This document shows, piece after piece, positions 20,273-28,723 of a stretch of 33,408 nucleotides of DNA. Position numbers and translations under genes: made by a program. The DNA lies in the IMG/VR virus record IMGVR_UViG_3300017738_000015, positions 1 to 33,408 of that record, one strand, 5' to 3'. The number at the start of each line of letters is the position of its first letter. Position 1 is the first letter of the stretch. The stretch is from a virus. The notes below the pieces were generated by a model. It searched no databases. It saw only the letters and a program-made list of their open reading frames with translations, and was not told the origin of the DNA.

Positions 20273-20302
20273 TTGACAGGTATATGCACGCTGTGCTTAT
20301 CT
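20273..20302 (+). promoter_or_regulatory. Early promoter P2 (sigma70-like)
   Basis: TTGACA at 20273-20278 followed by TTATCT at 20297-20302 with an 18-base spacer, 33 bases before the first early ATG. A perfect dyad GCAC-GCT-GTGC (20286-20296) sits between the boxes. Aligned with P1, more than half of the spacer bases are the same, including GCAC and TGC blocks, which suggests that P1 and P2 are duplicates under the same control. Confidence 0.6.
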
Positions 20303-20334
20303 CTCATTAGCAAAACAAATGAAAGGTTAAAACA

Positions 20335-20553
20335 ATGACTCAAAGACATAATGATTATCGTGACTGCATGACAACAGAGCCGATGAACAAAGAACCAAAC
20401 TTAAAGTTTTTTAGATCGCACCATGCAAAGACAATGCACGATAAAGATTTTCAAATTGCTTTAGGTAAGGTTTTAGATATTGCCGATAAGAACAAGGTTG
20501 ATATTCACGACCTTTGTCAATCAATTCGTTTTATGAATAAACATGGTTTCTAA
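20335..20553 (+). CDS. Early protein of unknown function (72 aa)
   Basis: First early gene, 33 bases downstream of promoter P2 and preceded by the recurring leader (TTAGCAAAAC, then GAAAGG). The protein is charged and histidine-rich in its first half (FFRSHHAKTMHDKDFQIALG), followed by a helical segment (KVLDIADKNKVDIHDLCQSI). No known domain is recognised. First-transcribed small phage genes often act against host functions or start the early programme, but nothing in the sequence shows this. Confidence 0.75.
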   Translation: MTQRHNDYRDCMTTEPMNKEPNLKFFRSHHAKTMHDKDFQIALGKVLDIADKNKVDIHDLCQSIRFMNKHGF

Positions 20554-20588
20554 TCAAATAATCACACTAGCAAAAGGAAGATAAGACA

Positions 20589-21044
20589 ATGAGAAAAGTT
20601 AGCAAAAACACAGTATTCGCATTTTTAAATCGTACCGTAAAACGTACTGGGAAAAATGACGCTGTTAAACGCACAGGATTTGTTGAGACTAACAACAAAA
20701 CAGGCGAAACAAAAAACACAGAATGTTTTTACATGACGCTACACGATAACCCTATAGCAAGCTTGCAGCCATTACACAAAACAAAATGGCACAAACGCAC
20801 AATACATTTAACCCTTGCAGGTTGGAACACAGTAACAACACGCGAACGATTAAATGCTTTATTGCGTATTCTGGGCAAAAGTAACTTGCATATTGTCCAA
20901 CATAAACACCAAGCTTGCCTTGCCACATTTGCAGGGAACAAACGGCTTACAACACCATTAAATGCGCATCGCTGGTATGATTTGGAAGAATTGCAGCACA
21001 TGGCAAACTTTTTATACCACAAAGAAACTAACAAGGCAGCATAA
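20589..21044 (+). CDS. Basic early protein of unknown function (151 aa)
   Basis: A Lys/Arg/His/Thr-rich protein with a beta-strand/helix pattern (NTECFYMTLHDNPI, then RTIHLTLAGWNTVTTRERLN). It has an N-terminal basic region with repeated KRTGK/KRTGF units at about 18-30 and a C-terminal WYDLEELQHMANFLY helix. The leader ACTAGCAAAAGGAAG and an ATG eight bases further support the start. The basic charge suggests nucleic-acid binding; the fold is not recognised. A strong stem-loop region follows it. Confidence 0.75.
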   Translation: MRKVSKNTVFAFLNRTVKRTGKNDAVKRTGFVETNNKTGETKNTECFYMTLHDNPIASLQPLHKTKWHKRTIHLTLAGWNTVTTRERLNALLRILGKSNLHIVQHKHQACLATFAGNKRLTTPLNAHRWYDLEELQHMANFLYHKETNKAA

Positions 21045-21053
21045 ACAACAACA

Positions 21054-21115
21054 GGCGGCACGCATTGCGCGTGCTGCCCCATGATTGCATGGCAATGATT
21101 GTGCAATGATGGGGC
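21054..21115 (+). other. Overlapping alternative stem-loops in the early leader
   Basis: Arm GGCGGCACGC (21054-21063) pairs with GCGTGCTGCC (21069-21078) over ten positions with one G-T wobble and a five-base loop. The 3' arm overlaps the 5' arm of a second stem, GCCCCAT (21076-21082) with ATGGGGC (21109-21115), whose loop holds a smaller ATTGC/GCAAT hairpin. The two main stems exclude each other. They lie between two early genes and 36 bases before the next ATG. No poly-U follows, so this is not a standard terminator; a switch, processing site or stabiliser is possible. Confidence 0.6.
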
Positions 21116-21150
21116 AAATGCCCACAACACTAGCAAGAGAGGTTAAACAA

Positions 21151-21372
21151 ATGGCAAAATATAATGGTTACACAAGTTGGAACGCTTGGAACGTATCGCT
21201 TTGGATAAATAACGATGAATACCTTTACAACATGGCAAGAGATACCGTCAAAAGTTTGGGTTATGTGCGTGGATTGAAGGCTCTTGTCGCACAATGGGGA
21301 GGCGAAAAAACCCCAGATGGGGCAATCTATAACCGCACCGGAATCAAGCAAGCAATACAAGAGATAGTTTGA
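21151..21372 (+). CDS. DUF7249-like small phage protein (73 aa)
   Basis: The start MAKYNGYTSWNAWNVSLWIN followed by NDEYLYNMARDTV is a pattern that recurs in many unrelated phages as a protein of unknown function (family similar to DUF7249). I take the ATG at 21151, because the leader ACTAGCAAGAGAGG lies just before it; the open frame extends 22 codons upstream through the stem-loop region and is unlikely to be translated. The stop overlaps the start of the next small gene by one base. Tryptophan-rich N-terminus and Gly-x-Lys turns suggest a small compact fold. Confidence 0.75.
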   Translation: MAKYNGYTSWNAWNVSLWINNDEYLYNMARDTVKSLGYVRGLKALVAQWGGEKTPDGAIYNRTGIKQAIQEIV

Positions 21373-21515
21373 TGGCTGAGAAACTTTTAAACGGTTTTTG
21401 TATGATAATCACAATCTTAATAATAATGGGTTTTATTGACTGGTTGTGGTTGTTTGGAATCGAAAGCAGTCGAAGTTACACTTGGTACGCTGTAATGGCT
21501 CACTTTGGTAAATAG
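21372..21515 (+). CDS. Single-pass membrane mini-protein (47 aa)
   Basis: Not on usual gene-length lists. The start codon is part of TTTGATGG, where the stop of the upstream gene and the ATG share one base. The protein reads MAEKLLNGF, then a hydrophobic span CMIITILIIMGFIDWLWLFG (about 10-29), then a polar tail ending in YAVMAHFGK. This is a convincing transmembrane helix with a tail. The function is unknown; early membrane mini-proteins are candidates for exclusion or host takeover roles. Coupled translation and good composition support it as real. Confidence 0.65.
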   Translation: MAEKLLNGFCMIITILIIMGFIDWLWLFGIESSRSYTWYAVMAHFGK

Positions 21516-21526
21516 GCTACCGACTA

Positions 21527-21556
21527 CCCATTGACGGTTAGAGGGCTGTCAGTGGG
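21527..21556 (+). other. Stem-loop upstream of the 152-residue early gene
   Basis: CCCATTGAC (21527-21535) pairs with GTCAGTGGG (21548-21556) over nine positions with one wobble and a twelve-base loop. It lies between the stop of the membrane mini-protein and the leader motif at 21581. No U-run follows. Confidence 0.5.
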
Positions 21557-21580
21557 CTTCAAATCGCCAGCAATGGCACA

Positions 21581-21600
21581 ACTAGCAAAAGAGAGAGGGC
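21581..21600 (+). repeat. Recurring early-gene leader, best copy (CTAGCAAAAGAGAGAGGG)
   Basis: Reference copy of a motif with consensus ACTAGCAAAAGAGAGAGGG. Other copies begin at 20307, 20566, 21129, 22061, 22393 (degenerate), 22726, 22978, 24176 and 25072, all on the plus strand in the early region. In nearly all, an ATG follows the copy at a short distance. The GAGAGAGG part is the ribosome-binding site, but the CTAGCAA block upstream is not part of a usual Shine-Dalgarno sequence and is the conserved portion. I saw no equivalent block before late genes. Confidence 0.8.
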
Positions 21601-21605
21601 AAATC

Positions 21606-22064
21606 ATGTCTAAGAAAGTAAATCACTCGTTATCTAATAAACTTATCAGTAGGTTTATATCAAATGAAGAAGCTACAAAGCGTAAGGAAGATAGGATAAT
21701 ACAAAGCCTATCGCCTGATATTGGCACGTTACGTCTAACTTACACCATGATTAACAAACATATCATTGATGCAAATGCCAGCATCCGAAGGCTTGCGCTA
21801 TTGCTTGGCGTTGATATGGAAACAATGACCAATGGCGATAAAGTGACGATACAAGGCGAATATGACGATGGAACGCCATGCAATGTAAATTTTTATCGCA
21901 CTAGGATGCGTTCAGATAGGCGAGTTAGTCTATCAGGCATTAAGAAGCAAGCGCAAAGTGGTGATCTATTAGCCTTGTCTTACAAGAGAAACGAGCAAGG
22001 CGAATACATACTAATTATTAACGTAACAGCGGCAGCACATTGTCGCGTAACTAAAATTAGCTAG
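21606..22064 (+). CDS. Early protein of unknown function (152 aa)
   Basis: I start at the ATG at 21606 (MSKKVNHSLSNKLISRFISN), which follows the leader motif; the frame is open for 25 codons upstream, but that part translates the leader itself. The protein has a helical N-terminal half with charged stretches (EEATKRKEDRIIQSLSPD), a middle helix (ANASIRRLALLLGVDMETM), and a beta-rich C-terminal half with a GDKVTIQGEYDDGTPCN hairpin and an ending strand YILIINVTAAAHCRVT. No family recognised. Its stop lies within the leader of the next gene. Confidence 0.72.
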   Translation: MSKKVNHSLSNKLISRFISNEEATKRKEDRIIQSLSPDIGTLRLTYTMINKHIIDANASIRRLALLLGVDMETMTNGDKVTIQGEYDDGTPCNVNFYRTRMRSDRRVSLSGIKKQAQSGDLLALSYKRNEQGEYILIINVTAAAHCRVTKIS

Positions 22065-22086
22065 CAAAAGAGAGAGGGATAAAACA

Positions 22087-22398
22087 ATGGTAATAGAATT
22101 TGATATTGATGACGTTTTGTTTATGTCGCACACCGCTTGCCAAAACTTTTACAATGAACAAAGAGAAAGATTTGAACATTATAAAAGTAATATAAGAATG
22201 TTGCCAGATAGACCAACAGCAAAAGACAAGCAAGGCACTATGTTTTTCTATGATAGCCAAGTTTCTGCCTTGATAGCTTACAAAGTTATCAGTGAAAGAG
22301 AAAGTGCCGCATTGCTTTGGGATTTAGTAGGCGAAGAATGGGTTGTGGCTTGCTCAATGGATTGGAAGCAATACATGGAAAGCAGAAGTGCTGCGTAA
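22087..22398 (+). CDS. Early protein of unknown function (103 aa)
   Basis: Start chosen at the ATG 17-20 bases after a complete leader motif. The protein begins with a short beta/acidic segment (MVIEFDIDDVLFMSHTA). It continues with a charged helix (YNEQRERFEHYKSNIRML) and a second helix (SALIAYKVISERESAALLWD), and ends with tryptophan-rich residues (WVVACSMDWKQYMESRSAA). No domain recognised; no membrane segment. The stop lies next to the degenerate leader copy of the next gene. Confidence 0.7.
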   Translation: MVIEFDIDDVLFMSHTACQNFYNEQRERFEHYKSNIRMLPDRPTAKDKQGTMFFYDSQVSALIAYKVISERESAALLWDLVGEEWVVACSMDWKQYMESRSAA

Positions 22399-22415
22399 AG
22401 AGAGAGGGCAAAACA

Positions 22416-22679
22416 ATGATTAACGCAATATTCAAATTAAGAGACAAGTCTCAAACAAATTTAGGATGGGAATACATTAAGATTGTTGATCGATATTGTT
22501 ATGGCTGGGAAGAAGTGCCAGCAGAAAACACATATCACAAAAAAGCTTGGACAATGAAAAAGTTTACCTTTGTCATTCTGGGCTGGGATACAGACAAACC
22601 AAAAGATATGCACCCAATAACTGAAGATGAGATGGAAGACTTATGGATGAATTATGATTTTGTTGAAATGGAAAACTAA
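22416..22679 (+). CDS. Early protein of unknown function (87 aa)
   Basis: The ATG at 22416 follows the leader copy AAAGAGAGAGGGCAAAACA. The protein is rich in Tyr, Trp, Asp and Glu (LGWEYIKIVDRYCYGWEEV, then WTMKKFTFVILGWDTDKP). It has an acidic C-terminus (EDEMEDLWMNYDFVEMEN), giving it a strongly negative net charge. Small acidic phage proteins often mimic DNA or bind basic host factors; that is speculative here. No family recognised. Confidence 0.7.
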   Translation: MINAIFKLRDKSQTNLGWEYIKIVDRYCYGWEEVPAENTYHKKAWTMKKFTFVILGWDTDKPKDMHPITEDEMEDLWMNYDFVEMEN

Positions 22680-22687
22680 AAGAGAAA

Positions 22688-22712
22688 CCGCCAAAGCATT
22701 GCGCTATGGCGG
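22688..22712 (+). other. Stem-loop upstream of the Cro/CI-like gene
   Basis: CCGCCA (22688-22693) pairs perfectly with TGGCGG (22707-22712); inside it AGC and GCT form an extra short stem around ATTGC. It lies 9 bases after a stop codon and before the leader copy at 22726. There is no clear U tract. The leader copy is followed by a ten-codon open frame (ATG at 22737) that ends before the regulator gene; it could be a leader peptide or nothing. Confidence 0.5.
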
Positions 22713-22788
22713 CTCTCACTTTCACACTAGCAAAACATGAAAGGTACGTTCCTAAAAAACCCTAAATAGGAATAGAAAGGATTATAAC

Positions 22789-22998
22789 ATGGATGCAAAA
22801 ACTTTCAAGTTAGAAAGATTACAGCTTGGTCTTAGTCAAACTGACATGGCTAACAGGCTAGGCGTTTGCCTGAGAACAATAGGTTATTACGAGGCAGGCG
22901 AGAAACCAATACCAGACTCAATCAGGCTTCTACATAACTGCTTAAAGAGAAAGGTCATTTTAGAAAAAGATATTGAGCTAGCAAAAGAGAGAGGATAG
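22789..22998 (+). CDS. XRE-family (Cro/CI-like) DNA-binding regulator (69 aa)
   Basis: A compact helix-turn-helix protein: KLERLQLGLSQTDMANRLG followed by CLRTIGYYEAGEKPIPDSIR has the XRE signature of a Q-T/S-x-x-A-x-x-L-G turn helix and a recognition helix ending in YYEAG. The rest is a short dimer-like helix. The ATG follows a GAAAGG site. It is the last gene of the first early block, directly before a terminator. It probably represses one or more of the promoters that carry dyads. The final codons translate a leader copy (ELAKERG). Confidence 0.85.
   Translation: MDAKTFKLERLQLGLSQTDMANRLGVCLRTIGYYEAGEKPIPDSIRLLHNCLKRKVILEKDIELAKERG
22978..22994 (+). repeat. Leader copy overlapping the end of the regulator gene
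   Basis: CTAGCAAAAGAGAGAGG occurs inside the last codons of the regulator gene. No plus-strand gene follows; a terminator begins 25 bases further on. It is either a relic of a lost downstream gene or evidence that the motif has a role apart from translation starts. Confidence 0.7.
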
Positions 22999-23018
22999 CA
23001 CAAGCTAGTTGTACAACA

Positions 23019-23060
23019 AAAACTAGCCTAGTCTATAAGCTGGGCTAGTTTTATTTTTTT
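23019..23060 (+). terminator. Rho-independent terminator of the first early block
   Basis: AAAACTAGCC (23019-23028) pairs with GGCTAGTTTT (23043-23052) over ten base pairs, followed by ATTTTTTTAT. The loop of fourteen bases is wide but the stem and T-run are clear. It ends rightward transcription before the minus-strand island. Confidence 0.75.
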
Positions 23061-23071
23061 ATATATTTATT

Positions 23072-23128
23072 GCTTGCTAGTTTTGAGTTGAGTCTAGTTA
23101 AAGACTAGACTAGTGTTAACGAGCAAGC
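23072..23128. other. Inverted-repeat region between convergent gene blocks
   Basis: AGTCTAGT (23091-23098) pairs perfectly with ACTAGACT (23104-23111) around a five-base loop. Outside it GCTTGC (23072-23077) pairs with GCAAGC (23123-23128), giving a larger cruciform. The segment 23074-23080 reads TTGCTAG, the complement of the leader core CTAGCAA. It may terminate minus-strand transcription from the resolvase gene, though no U-run is evident on that strand. Confidence 0.5.
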
Positions 23129-23142
23129 TCGATTTTATCCAG

Positions 23143-23547
23143 TCAGTTTTTCTTGTCAACCCCATAACTTTCCCTGACCACTTGAACCCAAGTTGATAGT
23201 GACATTTCTGCAACAAGCTTTGGATCATAAGAGAAAGAACGACACGCAGCCATAAGCTGTATGACGCAACGGATTGGCCTGTTGTTAAACTTGTATATCA
23301 GCACTGGGAACCTATCGCCTGATGCCTCACAAGCCTGTTCCCACCATGCCTGTTTGTAGGTTGCGCCACTGGCATAAGCCTTACATTCAATAGACCATCC
23401 AGGGATTACAATGTCAGCCTCACCTTTGATTTGATATTGAGAGAGGTTGCGCTTTGGCATCTCAGGCAATGACTCGCCAAGATGGTCTTTTATATAGTTT
23501 ACAATCTGACGCTCAAACGCTGCACCTTTCTGTCTGCTATCTGTCAT
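23143..23547 (-). CDS. Holliday-junction-resolvase-like nuclease (134 aa)
   Basis: Nuclease of the PD-(D/E)XK type resembling Hjc-like resolvases. The N-terminal KGAAFERQIVNYIKD has the active-site Glu12. It continues with QIKGEADIVIPGWSIECKAY, where Asp45 and Glu54-x-Lys56 complete the metal site at the usual spacing. The strand FPVLIYKFNNRPIRCVIQL follows. Length (134 aa) is typical for this class. It is the last gene of the minus-strand island, overlapping the upstream 52-residue gene by 11 bases. Likely role is cleavage of branched recombination or replication intermediates, matching the recombination genes nearby. Confidence 0.78.
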   Translation of the reverse strand: MTDSRQKGAAFERQIVNYIKDHLGESLPEMPKRNLSQYQIKGEADIVIPGWSIECKAYASGATYKQAWWEQACEASGDRFPVLIYKFNNRPIRCVIQLMAACRSFSYDPKLVAEMSLSTWVQVVRESYGVDKKN

Positions 23548-23695
23548 TTTTTTTCTGCTTTAAAACGCTCTTGGCTGGATTCTTTTTGCGGATTACACGC
23601 CCAAGATTATCAAACTTAATATCTATCTCTGGCACATGCAAAGCCTCTTTGATTTCTTCAATCGTAGGCACTTTATAATTATCTTTTCTGTCCAT
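23537..23695 (-). CDS. Small charged protein of unknown function (52 aa)
   Basis: I choose the ATG at 23695 (MDRKDNYKVPTIEEIKEALH), preceded by GGAGATAAAC; a longer reading to 23743 is possible but lacks support. The protein has a helical acidic first half, then a basic tail (RVIRKKNPAKSVLKQKKNDR). It overlaps the zinc-protein gene by 17 bases and the resolvase gene by 11, as expected for a coupled set. Unknown function; perhaps a partner of the resolvase. Confidence 0.55.
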   Translation of the reverse strand: MDRKDNYKVPTIEEIKEALHVPEIDIKFDNLGRVIRKKNPAKSVLKQKKNDR

Positions 23696-23951
23696 GTTTA
23701 TCTCCATACACCAAATGACAAACTTTACATTCCAAAGCACCATCCAGAAAGGTATCGCACCTCACGCAATTGCCATTGGCTAACCGCCTCGCAAACAAAC
23801 CATCACCCACTTGGATAACATCAGAAACCTCGCCAGTGCCATCGCATTCCTCGCAGTCCTCTGGCACAACGTCTGTTGGATCAAAGTAATCTTTGACATA
23901 CTGAAATCCTTTACCTTTGCACTTTCGACATGGCTTCGTTGAAAAAGTCAT
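23679..23951 (-). CDS. DnaJ-type zinc-finger protein (90 aa)
   Basis: Two CxxCxGxG repeats (CRKCKGKG at 8-15 and CEECDGTG at about 33-40) are the zinc-binding motif of DnaJ. A second CxxC pair (CVRC, CKVC) lies in the C-terminal half, making a possible second zinc site. The J domain is missing, so this is not a full chaperone. Small proteins of this type are common in phages with no fixed function; nucleic-acid or protein binding is likely. It overlaps the repressor gene upstream by 41 bases with a GAGG site before its ATG. Confidence 0.75.
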   Translation of the reverse strand: MTFSTKPCRKCKGKGFQYVKDYFDPTDVVPEDCEECDGTGEVSDVIQVGDGLFARRLANGNCVRCDTFLDGALECKVCHLVYGDKHGQKR

Positions 23952-24120
23952 TGGGCTTTACCTCACCGTTGCTTGCTAAAATAATCCTACGCAAAACGTC
24001 TGGGCTTGGATAGCGTCTGTTTGCTACAAAATGAGACACTGCCGAGCGAGTAATCCCACAACGCCTTGCAAACTTGCTTTGCGTTATCTTGTTGATTTTA
24101 AGATATTCTTTCAATGTCAT
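23911..24120 (-). CDS. XRE-family (CI/Cro-like) repressor (69 aa)
   Basis: The sequence MTLKEYLKINKITQSKFARR, then CGITRSAVSHFVANRRYPSP, is a clear helix-turn-helix with recognition helix SAVSHFVANRR. I start at the ATG at 24120; the four codons upstream would need a TTG start. It is transcribed away from the RecB-like gene, with an 82-base gap containing a perfect dyad. It is therefore likely to repress the neighbouring rightward promoter and perhaps its own. The C-terminal peptidase/dimer domain of large CI proteins is absent, so no RecA-dependent inactivation is expected. Confidence 0.85.
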   Translation of the reverse strand: MTLKEYLKINKITQSKFARRCGITRSAVSHFVANRRYPSPDVLRRIILASNGEVKPNDFFNEAMSKVQR

Positions 24121-24137
24121 AACATAAACCAAACTTT

Positions 24138-24169
24138 ACTGTTGACAGTTTGTAACATGCTGTTACTCT
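24138..24169 (+). promoter_or_regulatory. Operator/promoter region upstream of the recombination block
   Basis: ACTGTTGACAGT (24138-24149) is a perfect palindrome holding TTGACA as a -35 box. A second perfect dyad, GTAACA (24152-24157) with TGTTAC (24161-24166), follows with a three-base centre. TACTCT (24164-24169) is a weak -10 box, 16 bases after the -35. The 24120 repressor gene lies on one side and the recombination genes on the other, so this is the best operator candidate for a divergent switch. The -10 call is uncertain. Confidence 0.55.
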
Positions 24170-24202
24170 ATCAACACTAGCAAAACAGTCAAGGTAAATA
24201 AT

Positions 24203-25096
24203 ATGCAAAATATACCAGATAGGTTCAAAGAGATGGGCCTGACCCATCTATCAGCATCGTCAGGAACAGAAGAGAAATACCTTTTGATGCTAAAATATTG
24301 GTTGCGTCACAATCACAATATGCAGTTTCCAGGGTCAGCAAGAATGATAACAGGTTCTATTGTCCAAGAGGGAAGCGACTGCATACTAGGATTGCATAAC
24401 TTTGATCCAGAGAAGGGCCAGCAAGACGGAATGGACGTTGCAGAGTCAACGCGGCACATGATGTCTTTGTATGATGAATATAGCCCTCGCAACTTTGATG
24501 ATGGCAAGGATGCAGAAGACTATGAAGCATTTAGAGATTACTTATCGGACATGCTTGGCAACGCTGTTGCTGCTGTAAAAGAGTGGAGTAATCGCAACGG
24601 CATCAATCAATTAAACGGTGAGCATAAGACTTGGCATCACGATCCAAGGATTGAAGTTCCGATTATGCTCTTTAAAGACTACTACGGTGGCAACTTTCAG
24701 GCAGACTTGAAGTGCAAACTACCACAAAGAAACCCCCTCAAAAAAGATGGCACAAGAACATGGCGTGTTCCTAAACCAGACGTTCAACCCACATGGCAGA
24801 ACATCTGGCAACAGTCTGTCTATTACAAAGCCACAGGCGAAAAGCCATCGCTTCTTCATGTCACTGCATCAGGGTTTCATATCTGGGATGAAACAAACTG
24901 TGAGGCTCTGACAGAGGATAGTCTTGCAGAAACTTACGAGGATGTTGTTCGCAGTTGGATGATTACAGAAAACCTATTTAAAGCAGCGAATGGAAATTGG
25001 AACACGTTATTTGGTTTGGTTCAGCCAGATTTCATGGAGATAGAAAGAAGACATGGGCCAGAAATTTTAGCACTAGCAAGAGGAGCATGGAAATGA
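24203..25096 (+). CDS. RecB/Cas4-like PD-(D/E)XK exonuclease (297 aa)
   Basis: The order of motifs is that of RecB-family phage exonucleases: THLSASSGTEEKY (about 14-26), then the ARMITGSIVQEGSD segment (about 46-59), the core KDYYGGNFQADLKCK with likely Asp159 and Asp168-x-Lys170, and finally QQSVYYKATG (about 203-212), the Q-x(2-3)-Y helix. In many relatives the GS-x-V-x position holds His; here it reads GSIVQ, with Gln, which may weaken the metal site. It probably resects DNA ends to feed the annealing protein encoded downstream. It is preceded by a leader copy (24176) and the dyad promoter. Confidence 0.82.
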   Translation: MQNIPDRFKEMGLTHLSASSGTEEKYLLMLKYWLRHNHNMQFPGSARMITGSIVQEGSDCILGLHNFDPEKGQQDGMDVAESTRHMMSLYDEYSPRNFDDGKDAEDYEAFRDYLSDMLGNAVAAVKEWSNRNGINQLNGEHKTWHHDPRIEVPIMLFKDYYGGNFQADLKCKLPQRNPLKKDGTRTWRVPKPDVQPTWQNIWQQSVYYKATGEKPSLLHVTASGFHIWDETNCEALTEDSLAETYEDVVRSWMITENLFKAANGNWNTLFGLVQPDFMEIERRHGPEILALARGAWK

Positions 25097-25807: not shown

Positions 25808-25940
25808 AGAAACACAACAGCGCATTGATATGATGCAAATGAAAGTCGATGAGTTAGAGGCAAAGGTGCTAGAGCAAATGGTTGCTTTTACTACAGCTAT
25901 GAAGCTAATCGCAGACTTGATGGAGAAAAAAGATGGGTAG
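25800..25940 (+). CDS. Coiled-coil mini-protein (46 aa)
   Basis: Too short for usual gene lists. It starts at an ATG overlapping the previous stop by 8 bases, and ends overlapping the annealing-protein start. The sequence is almost a single helix (MQMKVDELEAKVLEQMVAF, then TAMKLIADLMEKKDG) with hydrophobic residues at heptad-like spacing. Such peptides often form homo- or hetero-oligomers. Tight overlaps on both sides support it as a real gene. Function unknown. Confidence 0.6.
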   Translation: MDEETQQRIDMMQMKVDELEAKVLEQMVAFTTAMKLIADLMEKKDG

Positions 25941-26634
25941 AGGAACCTTGCCGCCAAATCTTATCAAAGCCTTAGAAGATGTAGGCATGAGTCCAGAGAT
26001 GGATAAAGGGGCTGTATGGAACTGTCGAGGTACGCCAGTTGTTTTGCACAAAGCCTTAGAGCGTATTGCTCATAAACAAAATATGAGGTTTGATCCACCA
26101 ATGATTATTGAAACAGACGCAGAAAAAAACATTGCGGTGGTCTGTGTCACTGGTTACCTGGGTGATTTCTCTGAATGGTCTATAGGTGAAAGCACACCGC
26201 GCAATACCACTAATAATTATCCTTTTGCCATGGCTGAAAAACGTGCCAAGGACAGAGTTATATTAAAATTGCTTGGTGTTGCTGGCTTTGTTTATTCTGA
26301 ACAAGAGGCAGATAATTTTGAAAGAAGTAATCCAGACCTTGTACCAACTAAAGAAGAGAAAGCAGCCCAAGCCAACCAAGAAACAGAGAGCCAAGAGGGA
26401 GAAAGCAAGCCTGATGACAATGGGTTCGATCCTCTTGAACAGGAAGCAAGGGATTTCTGGCGTGAGGTTGCCATGAAGACCGACAGGAAAAACATGAAAA
26501 CCCAAAAAGAATACCTTGACTACACAAGGGGTGGTCACTTTGGCTCACAAATACAAAAGTTCATAGAAACTGAAACTTACAAAACTCAAATAGCACCTTG
26601 CTTACAAGCTGCACAGAAAAGATTAGGAGTGTAA
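25933..26634 (+). CDS. Probable single-strand annealing protein, Rad52/ERF-like (233 aa)
   Basis: Residues about 30-125 show a pattern known in phage annealing-type proteins: HKALERIAHKQNMRFDPPM, then VCVTGYLGDFSEWSIGES, followed by NYPFAMAEKRAKDRVILKLL with GVAGFVYSEQEAD. The AMAEKRAKDR-x-x-L helix is the strongest family signal. The middle is a Gln/Glu-rich linker (about 135-165), followed by a helical C-terminal domain. Assignment also rests on the neighbours: nuclease upstream and SSB-like protein downstream, the usual trio of recombination-dependent replication. Exact superfamily (Sak, ERF, RecT-like) cannot be fixed by eye. Confidence 0.65.
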   Translation: MGRGTLPPNLIKALEDVGMSPEMDKGAVWNCRGTPVVLHKALERIAHKQNMRFDPPMIIETDAEKNIAVVCVTGYLGDFSEWSIGESTPRNTTNNYPFAMAEKRAKDRVILKLLGVAGFVYSEQEADNFERSNPDLVPTKEEKAAQANQETESQEGESKPDDNGFDPLEQEARDFWREVAMKTDRKNMKTQKEYLDYTRGGHFGSQIQKFIETETYKTQIAPCLQAAQKRLGV

Positions 26635-28296: not shown

Positions 28297-28538
28297 TTCT
28301 TTTTCTTCGCTGCTGGTTTTTTCTTTTTTGCGCCACCTCGTAGCAAGTCTGAGTCAGCCTTCCTTGCGCCGCCCTTGCCAGACACAAAAGACTTTACCCT
28401 ACCCATAGCCCAAGCATGGGCAGAGGTCTTTGGCCTAGAACCTGATGAATAGTACGCACCAAGCCCACGTTTGTAGACCTTATTAAGAGTTGTTTTGGAA
28501 TACCGTGATGCACCTGAAATGCTTGCAAACCTAGACAT
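28293..28538 (-). CDS. Basic protein, DUF5824-like (81 aa)
   Basis: The pattern LNKVYKRGLGAYYSSGSRPK followed by SAHAWAMGRVKSFVSGKGGA and RKADSDLL is common in marine phages and resembles the family called DUF5824. The C-terminus is a lysine stretch (KKKKPAAKKKK), absent from many relatives. The function is unknown. It overlaps the lysozyme start by 4 bases and shares one base with the next upstream gene. Confidence 0.75.
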   Translation of the reverse strand: MSRFASISGASRYSKTTLNKVYKRGLGAYYSSGSRPKTSAHAWAMGRVKSFVSGKGGARKADSDLLRGGAKKKKPAAKKKK

Positions 28539-28723
28539 TATCCGCGACTCCTCTGCTTGCTAATCCTATCCATCATAGCTGGTGTAAGTTTGCCTTGTCT
28601 ATACAGCTTGGCAGTGCGCTTTATCTCTGCCTCTCGTTTCTTAGGGTTTTTTGCCCCACGCACATACTTCTTTGGCACACCGCCTTTTGTCTTTGGAACC
28701 TTTGCAAATTTACGCTTCGTCAC
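28538..28723 (-). CDS. Basic mini-protein of marine phages (61 aa)
   Basis: Highly basic (KVPKTKGGVPKKYVRGAKNP, then KKREAEIKRTAKLYRQGKLT and PAMMDRISKQRSRG), with a helical K/R/E core. Similar small proteins occur near DUF5824-like genes in other marine phages. No function known; the basic charge again suggests nucleic-acid or envelope binding. It overlaps the holin stop by 4 bases. Confidence 0.7.
   Translation of the reverse strand: MTKRKFAKVPKTKGGVPKKYVRGAKNPKKREAEIKRTAKLYRQGKLTPAMMDRISKQRSRG

Follow-up and report, generated by a model that had tools for sequence, protein, structure and literature searches.

A conserved leader at the head of early-gene cassettes in marine podovirus-like phages, with predicted hammerhead ribozymes upstream of it in relatives

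Known start-associated repeats and RNA-cutting elements of phages

Cluster K mycobacteriophages have start-associated sequences (SAS), asymmetric repeats of 13 bp that lie at the ribosome site of non-structural genes; some of their bases cannot pair with 16S rRNA, inverted repeats are sometimes present upstream, and their function is not known (PMC3203893). SAS-like motifs occur in Microbacterium cluster EF phages (PMC7302621). T4-type phages have promoter early stem-loops (PeSLs), repeated units of promoter plus stem-loop that are credited with module shuffling (Arbiol 2010 and Comeau 2014, as cited in PMC4503421). Hammerhead ribozymes flank single genes in prophages, and one proposal is that they divide long phage transcripts into mRNAs that cover an operon or a single gene (PMC3088659). 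Here we analyze a repeated leader, CTAGCAA followed by a ribosome site, in the early region of a 33,408-base virus record of IMG/VR (IMGVR_UViG_3300017738_000015; the whole stretch is hereafter called the window) and in related marine phages. The repeat is real, conserved, and functional-looking. It is probably a lineage-specific start-associated leader that heads early cassettes, lies at both primary and processed 5′ ends of early mRNA, and serves also as a recombination seam.

The leader resembles SAS and their extended form (ESAS) in being a short asymmetric repeat that adjoins starts and is found with non-structural genes only, in joining a ribosome site to conserved bases without a 16S partner, and in being tied to unrelated gene families. 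Further likenesses are that an inverted repeat is often present upstream and that the upstream consensus differs between subclusters. However, the SAS consensus is 5′-GGGATAGGAGCCC (PMC3203893), whereas that of the leader reads wAAMACTAGCAAA, followed by a ribosome site that varies; ESAS are 17-bp inverted repeats upstream of about half of the sites, whereas here we saw hammerheads or unrelated hairpins and no common 17-bp repeat. The host group differs as well, and here predicted promoter starts coincide with the leader, which follows a cassette-head rule. With PeSLs, as that citing account describes them, the leader shares a repeated intergenic regulatory unit in the early region, proposed module shuffling, and the occurrence of promoter and stem-loop elements. 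The phages studied here are not T4-type, judged by the large terminase (TerL) and T7-like portal family of the window, the stem-loops lack U-runs, and the shared part is a translation leader; shuffling and stem-loops are present, but a promoter-like box is found at only 36 of 207 sites and the combined unit was not found. Like the prophage hammerheads, those described below are of types I and II and lie between small phage genes of changing identity. Unlike them, they belong to marine podovirus-like phages (the window itself has none), where their distance to a shared leader downstream is fixed and the slot that they occupy can hold another hairpin element instead. Thus, within the limits of the account of PeSLs cited, the leader works like Cluster K SAS and T4-type PeSLs but by test belongs to neither, and the case combines the SAS, PeSL, and prophage-hammerhead ideas with a sequence of its own.

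The role of start-associated repeats in phages has been open since their description in Cluster K, as has the purpose of hammerheads in phage genomes. With a start-associated repeat and hammerheads co-occurring at fixed spacing, both questions become directly testable, the natural comparisons being the same gene with and without the leader and the same slot with a ribozyme or a hairpin. The leader also ties the rapid turnover of small early genes in marine phages to a defined seam in the sequence.

Position and copies of the leader in the window

An earlier note on this DNA, made from the sequence alone, had described a motif repeated about 10 times. That description holds for the core: CTAGCAA occurs on the + strand at 20567, 21130, 21582, 22061, 22727, 22978, 24177, and 25073, and TTAGCAA at 20307. 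The full 19-mer, ACTAGCAAAAGAGAGAGGG, with up to 3 mismatches allowed, is matched only at 21581, 22060, and 22977 (0.01 expected), and because it is near-complete at these three places only we rejected it as the repeat unit. The useful core of the repeat is wAAMA-CTAGCAAA; the ribosome site that follows it varies.

The count of CTAGCAA in the window is ordinary (11 versus 6.7 expected, with 6 of 100 shuffles reaching 11), and overabundance as such was dismissed as not significant. The nonrandom feature is position. [CT]TAGCAA lies within 65 nucleotides (nt) upstream of 8 of the 15 early + strand starts versus 2 of the 36 minus-strand starts (Fisher P = 3e-4), and its 10 occurrences near starts compare with 0.8 in Markov versions of the window. 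Both minus-strand matches are TTAGCAA variants, so the claim that late genes lack the motif is true of CTAGCAA. A protein-coding origin (the LAKERG reading) was rejected, since it applies to gene ends only and the frame relative to the start varies by copy.

All copies are on the + strand, and eight precede early starts. Copy 1 (CATTAGCAAAAC...AAGG; 20303 to 20334, core 20307 to 20313) precedes the 20335 start and copy 8 (24173 to 24202, core 24177 to 24183) the 24203 start; both are at predicted transcription starts. Copy 2 (20563 to 20588, core 20567 to 20573) precedes the 20589 start, with no hairpin upstream, and copy 3 (21126 to 21150, core 21130 to 21136) precedes the 21151 start of a DUF7249 gene. 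Copy 4 (21578 to 21605, core 21582 to 21588), before the 21606 start, is at the seam of a cassette that the nearest relative, L009, has and the window lacks. Copy 5 (22057 to 22086, core 22061 to 22067) overlaps the stop of the 21606 gene and precedes the 22087 start; copy 9 (25069 to 25092, core 25073 to 25079), which is conserved in relatives, overlaps the end of the 24203 gene and precedes the 25093 start. Copy 6 (22723 to 22750, core 22727 to 22733) lies 62 nt before the 22789 start of a helix-turn-helix (HTH) protein. Copy 7 (22974 to 22995, core 22978 to 22984) encodes the last residues of the HTH protein (ELAKERG, then stop) and is followed by no start in the window. Its counterpart heads the next downstream gene in relatives, and copy 7 therefore looks like a vestige. 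What had been taken for a degenerate copy at 22393 is the ribosome-site half only, GTAAAGAGAGAGGG (22396 to 22415, + strand), without CTAGC; it precedes the 22416 start of a second-in-cassette gene.

Two minor features of these regions may be mentioned. A 10-codon frame, MKGTFLKNPK (22736 to 22768), directly follows leader copy 6 before the HTH gene and is not kept in relative L024. On the minus strand at about 28538 to 28565, a leader-like TTAGCAAGCAGAGGAGTCGCGGATAATG precedes a late start inside the end of the preceding gene, as it does also in relatives.

Conservation and cassette organization in relatives

Related contigs were gathered by scanning viral contigs with the exact pattern, the 24203 protein, and the small terminase; seven exact-pattern matches (L014, L015, L017, L021, L023, L026, and L032) were dropped as coding-type matches in unrelated viruses. 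Among 73 nonredundant sites, chosen only for CTAGCA[AG], the flanking bases were A at −1 (96%), A or C at −2 (99%), A at −4 (70%), and A at +7 (84%), and conservation stopped at −5 upstream of the core. The leader mostly lies 18 to 26 nt before the ATG, but the gap from CTAGC to the ribosome site varies, as does the ribosome site itself (AAAGGA, AAAAGG, AGAGAGAGGG, and AACAGTCAAGG). Hence, conservation of CTAGCAA where the ribosome site varies, which the earlier note had proposed as a check, was confirmed: the block is fixed in related phages while ribosome site and spacing change. In near-complete relatives the pattern is nearly confined to one strand and one cluster, and the reversed-pattern control gave none.

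It could be argued that this is an ordinary or extended Shine-Dalgarno sequence, with CUAGC adding to the pairing with the 16S rRNA 3′ end, as the motif sits directly upstream of the ribosome site. However, shuffling CUAGC did not weaken the calculated duplexes with three 16S 3′ ends (−8.59 to −8.54, −7.71 to −7.92, and −6.80 to −6.85 kcal/mol), which largely refutes extended pairing, and the variable gap also speaks against it; we consider this explanation extremely improbable. A small RNA partner, which the earlier note had suggested, was not supported either: the sole + strand complement in the window, TTGCTAG at 23074, is not conserved in relatives. The region containing it (23013 to 23130) is CTAG-rich and lies between convergent genes, with a strong hairpin and then a U-run. 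The leader itself is slightly less structured than its shuffles (+0.5 kcal/mol).

Nearly every early cassette in about 20 contigs of related marine phages is headed by the leader (AACACUAGCAAA, ribosome site, AUG), 20 to 26 nt before the ATG. Each unit of an array comprises one to three genes with the leader at its head, and the units occur in many combinations, an organization that the earlier reader missed. Presence of the leader tracks the position in the unit and not the gene family: in families 18 and 20 it is found on genes that come first and not on those that come second, and families 13, 19, 28, 32, 33, 43, and 44 always have it, 20 to 26 nt before the ATG. Distant relatives have repeated leaders of their own, AAAGGATCA..ATG in L354, L365, and L359, AACAACAAAAGGATC..ATG in L299, and both AAGGATCA and ACTAGCAA in L347 and L348. 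CTAGCAA is thus one lineage's version of a more general habit.

A sharp 5′ boundary, near-invariant bases beyond the ribosome site, and one motif common to unrelated genes are also what a binding site would have if a phage or host protein (a translational regulator, an mRNA stabilizer, or an antiterminator) acted on all early cassettes, and two small HTH proteins are encoded alongside. We consider such a site unlikely, as no RNA-binding protein was identified among the neighbors and distant relatives use other leaders, but it is compatible with, not opposed to, the cassette-heading leader that we favor.

Predicted transcript starts

TTGACN occurs 30 to 42 nt before the core at the 36 sites mentioned above, versus 3.1 expected from its frequency at other distances. 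If the spacing is that of ordinary promoters, transcripts would start at the leader or a few bases before it. In the window, predicted early promoter 1 (20273 to 20302, + strand) has TTGACA at 20273 to 20278 and a poor −10 candidate at about 20297 to 20302; predicted early promoter 2 (24142 to 24169, + strand) has TTGACA at 24142 to 24147 and TACTCT at 24164 to 24169. The first copies in the operons would accordingly be placed at the start of the transcript. Operator-like dyads, GCACGCTGTGC at 20280 to 20298 and GTAACATGCTGTTAC at 24149 to 24166, lie between the promoter boxes. The dyad sequence differs among relatives (GTGCA.., GAACATTGTTC, and GGCAAGTCTTGCC), as if these were repressor sites of diverging specificity.

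The promoter-like box would also be expected if CTAGCAA were a DNA element, either part of the promoter (the initial transcribed region) or a repressor site. But most internal copies have no box, and many are located within a gene or immediately behind one; only the CTAG part of the motif is a palindrome, and the operator-like dyads are further upstream. These points make a DNA element very unlikely.

Predicted hammerhead ribozymes upstream of the leader in relatives

Hammerhead cores were first spotted by reading the structures upstream of leaders. We then searched 3.15 Mb with a descriptor requiring CUGANGA, GAAA, A15.1-U16.1, H17, and paired stems. There were 59 matches, comprising 26 distinct sequences in 32 contigs, and all were in the phage group shortly before an early gene start. 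In these 32 contigs the predicted ribozymes sit just upstream of an early-gene leader, mostly the CTAGCAA leader. The controls gave 1 match in 15.6 Mb of Markov sequence and 0 in 1.75 Mb of unrelated viral loci. Examples, all between early genes, are at L009:1733-1786, L019:2459-2519, L182:3898-3951, and L024:343-396 and 1158-1211. No hammerheads were found in four cultured relatives.

Eight of the distinct sequences are of type I and eighteen of type II. The core (CUGANGA, GAA, A15.1-U16.1, and H17) and the three stems are present in 26 of 26; N7 is U, C, or A, and H17 is always C. One type I sequence was misparsed in the alignment because its stem III loop is GAAA. Since the sites were picked by the descriptor, the independent evidence is compensation in the stems: stems I and III differ widely in sequence but stay paired, and stem II has GC/AU and CG/UA changes at two positions. 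The Rfam model Hammerhead_II (RF02276) matched two of the ribozymes, with 30.0 bits (E, 7e-5; 96-base search) and 25.7 bits (E, 1e-3; about 100 bases).

Predicted cleavage falls 17 to 18 nt (once 10 nt) before the leader core in type I and 36 to 40 nt before it in type II. In every leader-bearing sequence but the type I sequence of L325, the strand that cleavage would release can pair with the 3′ flank (as read from the sequence, UGUCAUAAGACA, UGCCAUAGGGCA; CUGAUGAGGCCAUCAG, CUGACGAGGCCGUCAG, CUGAUGAGAUCAG), and a hairpin would then form before the leader. Candidate pseudoknots from loop I to the leader were noticed by eye in a few type II sequences. The repeated early leaders of distant relatives (L354, L365, L359, L299, and L286) also include CGGAGGGTTTAACAATG, and several of these leaders stand behind hammerheads.

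Structured RNA upstream of the leader in the window

The 60 nt before intergenic copies of the leader fold far better than shuffles (mean z, −3.0), versus −1.1 for copies that overlap genes. Element B (21050 to 21128, + strand; z, −3.4), before copy 3, has two near-equal folds (minimum free energy, −39.1 kcal/mol, versus centroid, −38.9 kcal/mol), a three-way junction or separate hairpins; one of them leaves a GGGCAAAUGCCC hairpin immediately upstream of the leader. Element C (21519 to 21580, + strand; z, −3.9), before copy 4, consists of a 13-bp hairpin and a GCCAGCAAUGGC hairpin. Neither matched Rfam, and no credible Rfam-type RNA family was found in the window. A further hairpin (22682 to 22718, + strand; z, −4.9) is upstream of copy 6. 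In L009 a type II hammerhead stands before the counterpart of the 21151 gene, in the place that element B takes in the window, and this interchange suggests that element B may do the same job; it is possibly an unrecognized processing RNA. Apparent homologues of element B with compensatory changes were seen in L342, L259, L264, and L182.

Cassette junctions and processing

When early arrays were compared, 90 of the 170 right ends of homology blocks fell in a leader (16 expected), and 54 of the 182 left ends fell at one (14 expected). The excess stayed after redundant junctions were thinned (49 versus 9.7 for right ends and 28 versus 7.9 for left ends). The cleanest seam is between L009 and the window: between element C and the 21606 gene, L009 carries one cassette that the window lacks, and at that site the left flank of the window joins the right flank at the CTAGC core. 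Because every cassette has the same leader, the leader would provide a short homology for the gain, loss, and exchange of cassettes, a route of recombination that we infer from the block ends.

Taken together, these results are best explained by a leader, wAAMA-CUAGCAAA plus Shine-Dalgarno sequence plus AUG, at the head of each early cassette. The first copy of an operon would lie at or just after the transcription start, and many internal copies would come right after a structured RNA, which in relatives is often a hammerhead of type I or II and in the window another kind of hairpin. Self-cleavage or processing in the cell would divide the polycistronic early transcript into mRNAs one cassette long, every one of which would receive a short 5′ end with the same initiation context, and translation may be improved thereby. 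The suggestion in the earlier note that the motif marks mRNA processing thus has indirect support from hammerheads before leaders in the 32 related contigs, with leaders at predicted transcription starts elsewhere, although the window has no hammerhead.

More tentatively, in a reading that is less likely than not to hold in all its parts, many cassettes may be bounded by RNA that cleaves itself or is processed in another way, with the one shared leader at their start. The 3′ product would refold into a 5′-terminal hairpin before the leader (CUGAU..AUCAG in type II and UGUC..GACA in type I). Cassettes would then yield standard, independently stable mRNAs whatever their order, the leader would double as a recombination seam, and elements B and C would be further processing RNAs, possibly unrecognized ribozymes, in the same slot.

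Several results weigh against a processed, cassette-heading leader. The ribozymes before the leader, the part of most interest, are in relatives and not in the window: no hammerhead core was found in the window, elements B and C included, even with relaxed stems, and any processing there would have to rest on other hairpins. The copies at 20567, 22061, and 25073 have no upstream structure. Over all sites there was no enrichment of hairpins directly upstream of the leader (40 versus 30.8 by shuffling), and for this reason we rejected a general 5′-terminal hairpin. The Rfam scores are below the gathering cutoffs (30.0 and 25.7 of 37 for RF02276 and 26.4 of 56.3 for RF03152), and the hammerheads of the relatives, below cutoff where checked, are thus probably unannotated. 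In distant relatives, hammerheads also precede leaders that lack CTAGC, which indicates that the ribozymes do not need CUAGCAA. Finally, leaderless gene junctions break too (breakpoints at 43 of 66 leader junctions versus 20 of 46 others; P, 0.03, a conservative comparison because some of the others are misassigned heads with a leader farther away), and a general preference for gene boundaries explains part of the excess at leaders.

The junctions could also be taken to mean that CUAGCAA is a recombination seam only, a short homology kept by frequent cassette exchange and without a role in RNA. Homology blocks ending at the leader far above chance, the single cassette by which L009 and the window differ cleanly at the motif, and the presence next to the array of a nuclease homologue and of what may be an annealing protein would all be accounted for. 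But the leader is also fixed at predicted promoter starts and at coding-overlapping copies (25073) that do not border swapped cassettes, and gene boundaries in general break as well. A seam alone is therefore quite unlikely, and we prefer a start-associated leader that is also a seam.

The phage group and neighboring genes

The window encodes families of T7-like portal, capsid, and tail proteins and an Sf6-like small terminase; its TerL is 52% identical to those of the Pelagibacter podoviruses HTVC034P and HTVC010P, and its G+C content is 42%. Scanning the small terminase against bacterial genomes for a host gave no relative. The layout common to the phage group is small terminase (minus strand), variable early array, HTH gene, RusA-like gene (minus strand), HTH gene (minus strand), and the 24203 nuclease homologue.

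The gene at 25933 occupies the slot of the annealing protein in cultured relatives. Rad52-like phage recombinases tolerate divergence in such exchanges (PMC3945230). Identification of the 25933 gene product as an annealing protein was not accepted: there was no family match, and a fold search with RAD52 and phage Sak among the top hits was not significant (E, 0.03 to 0.14; predicted local distance difference test score, 68). The protein (25933 to 26634 in the window; also L009:7731-8384, L033:4013-4723, and L018:4847-5572) has two alternative N-terminal types, and its C-terminal parts are swapped among relatives.

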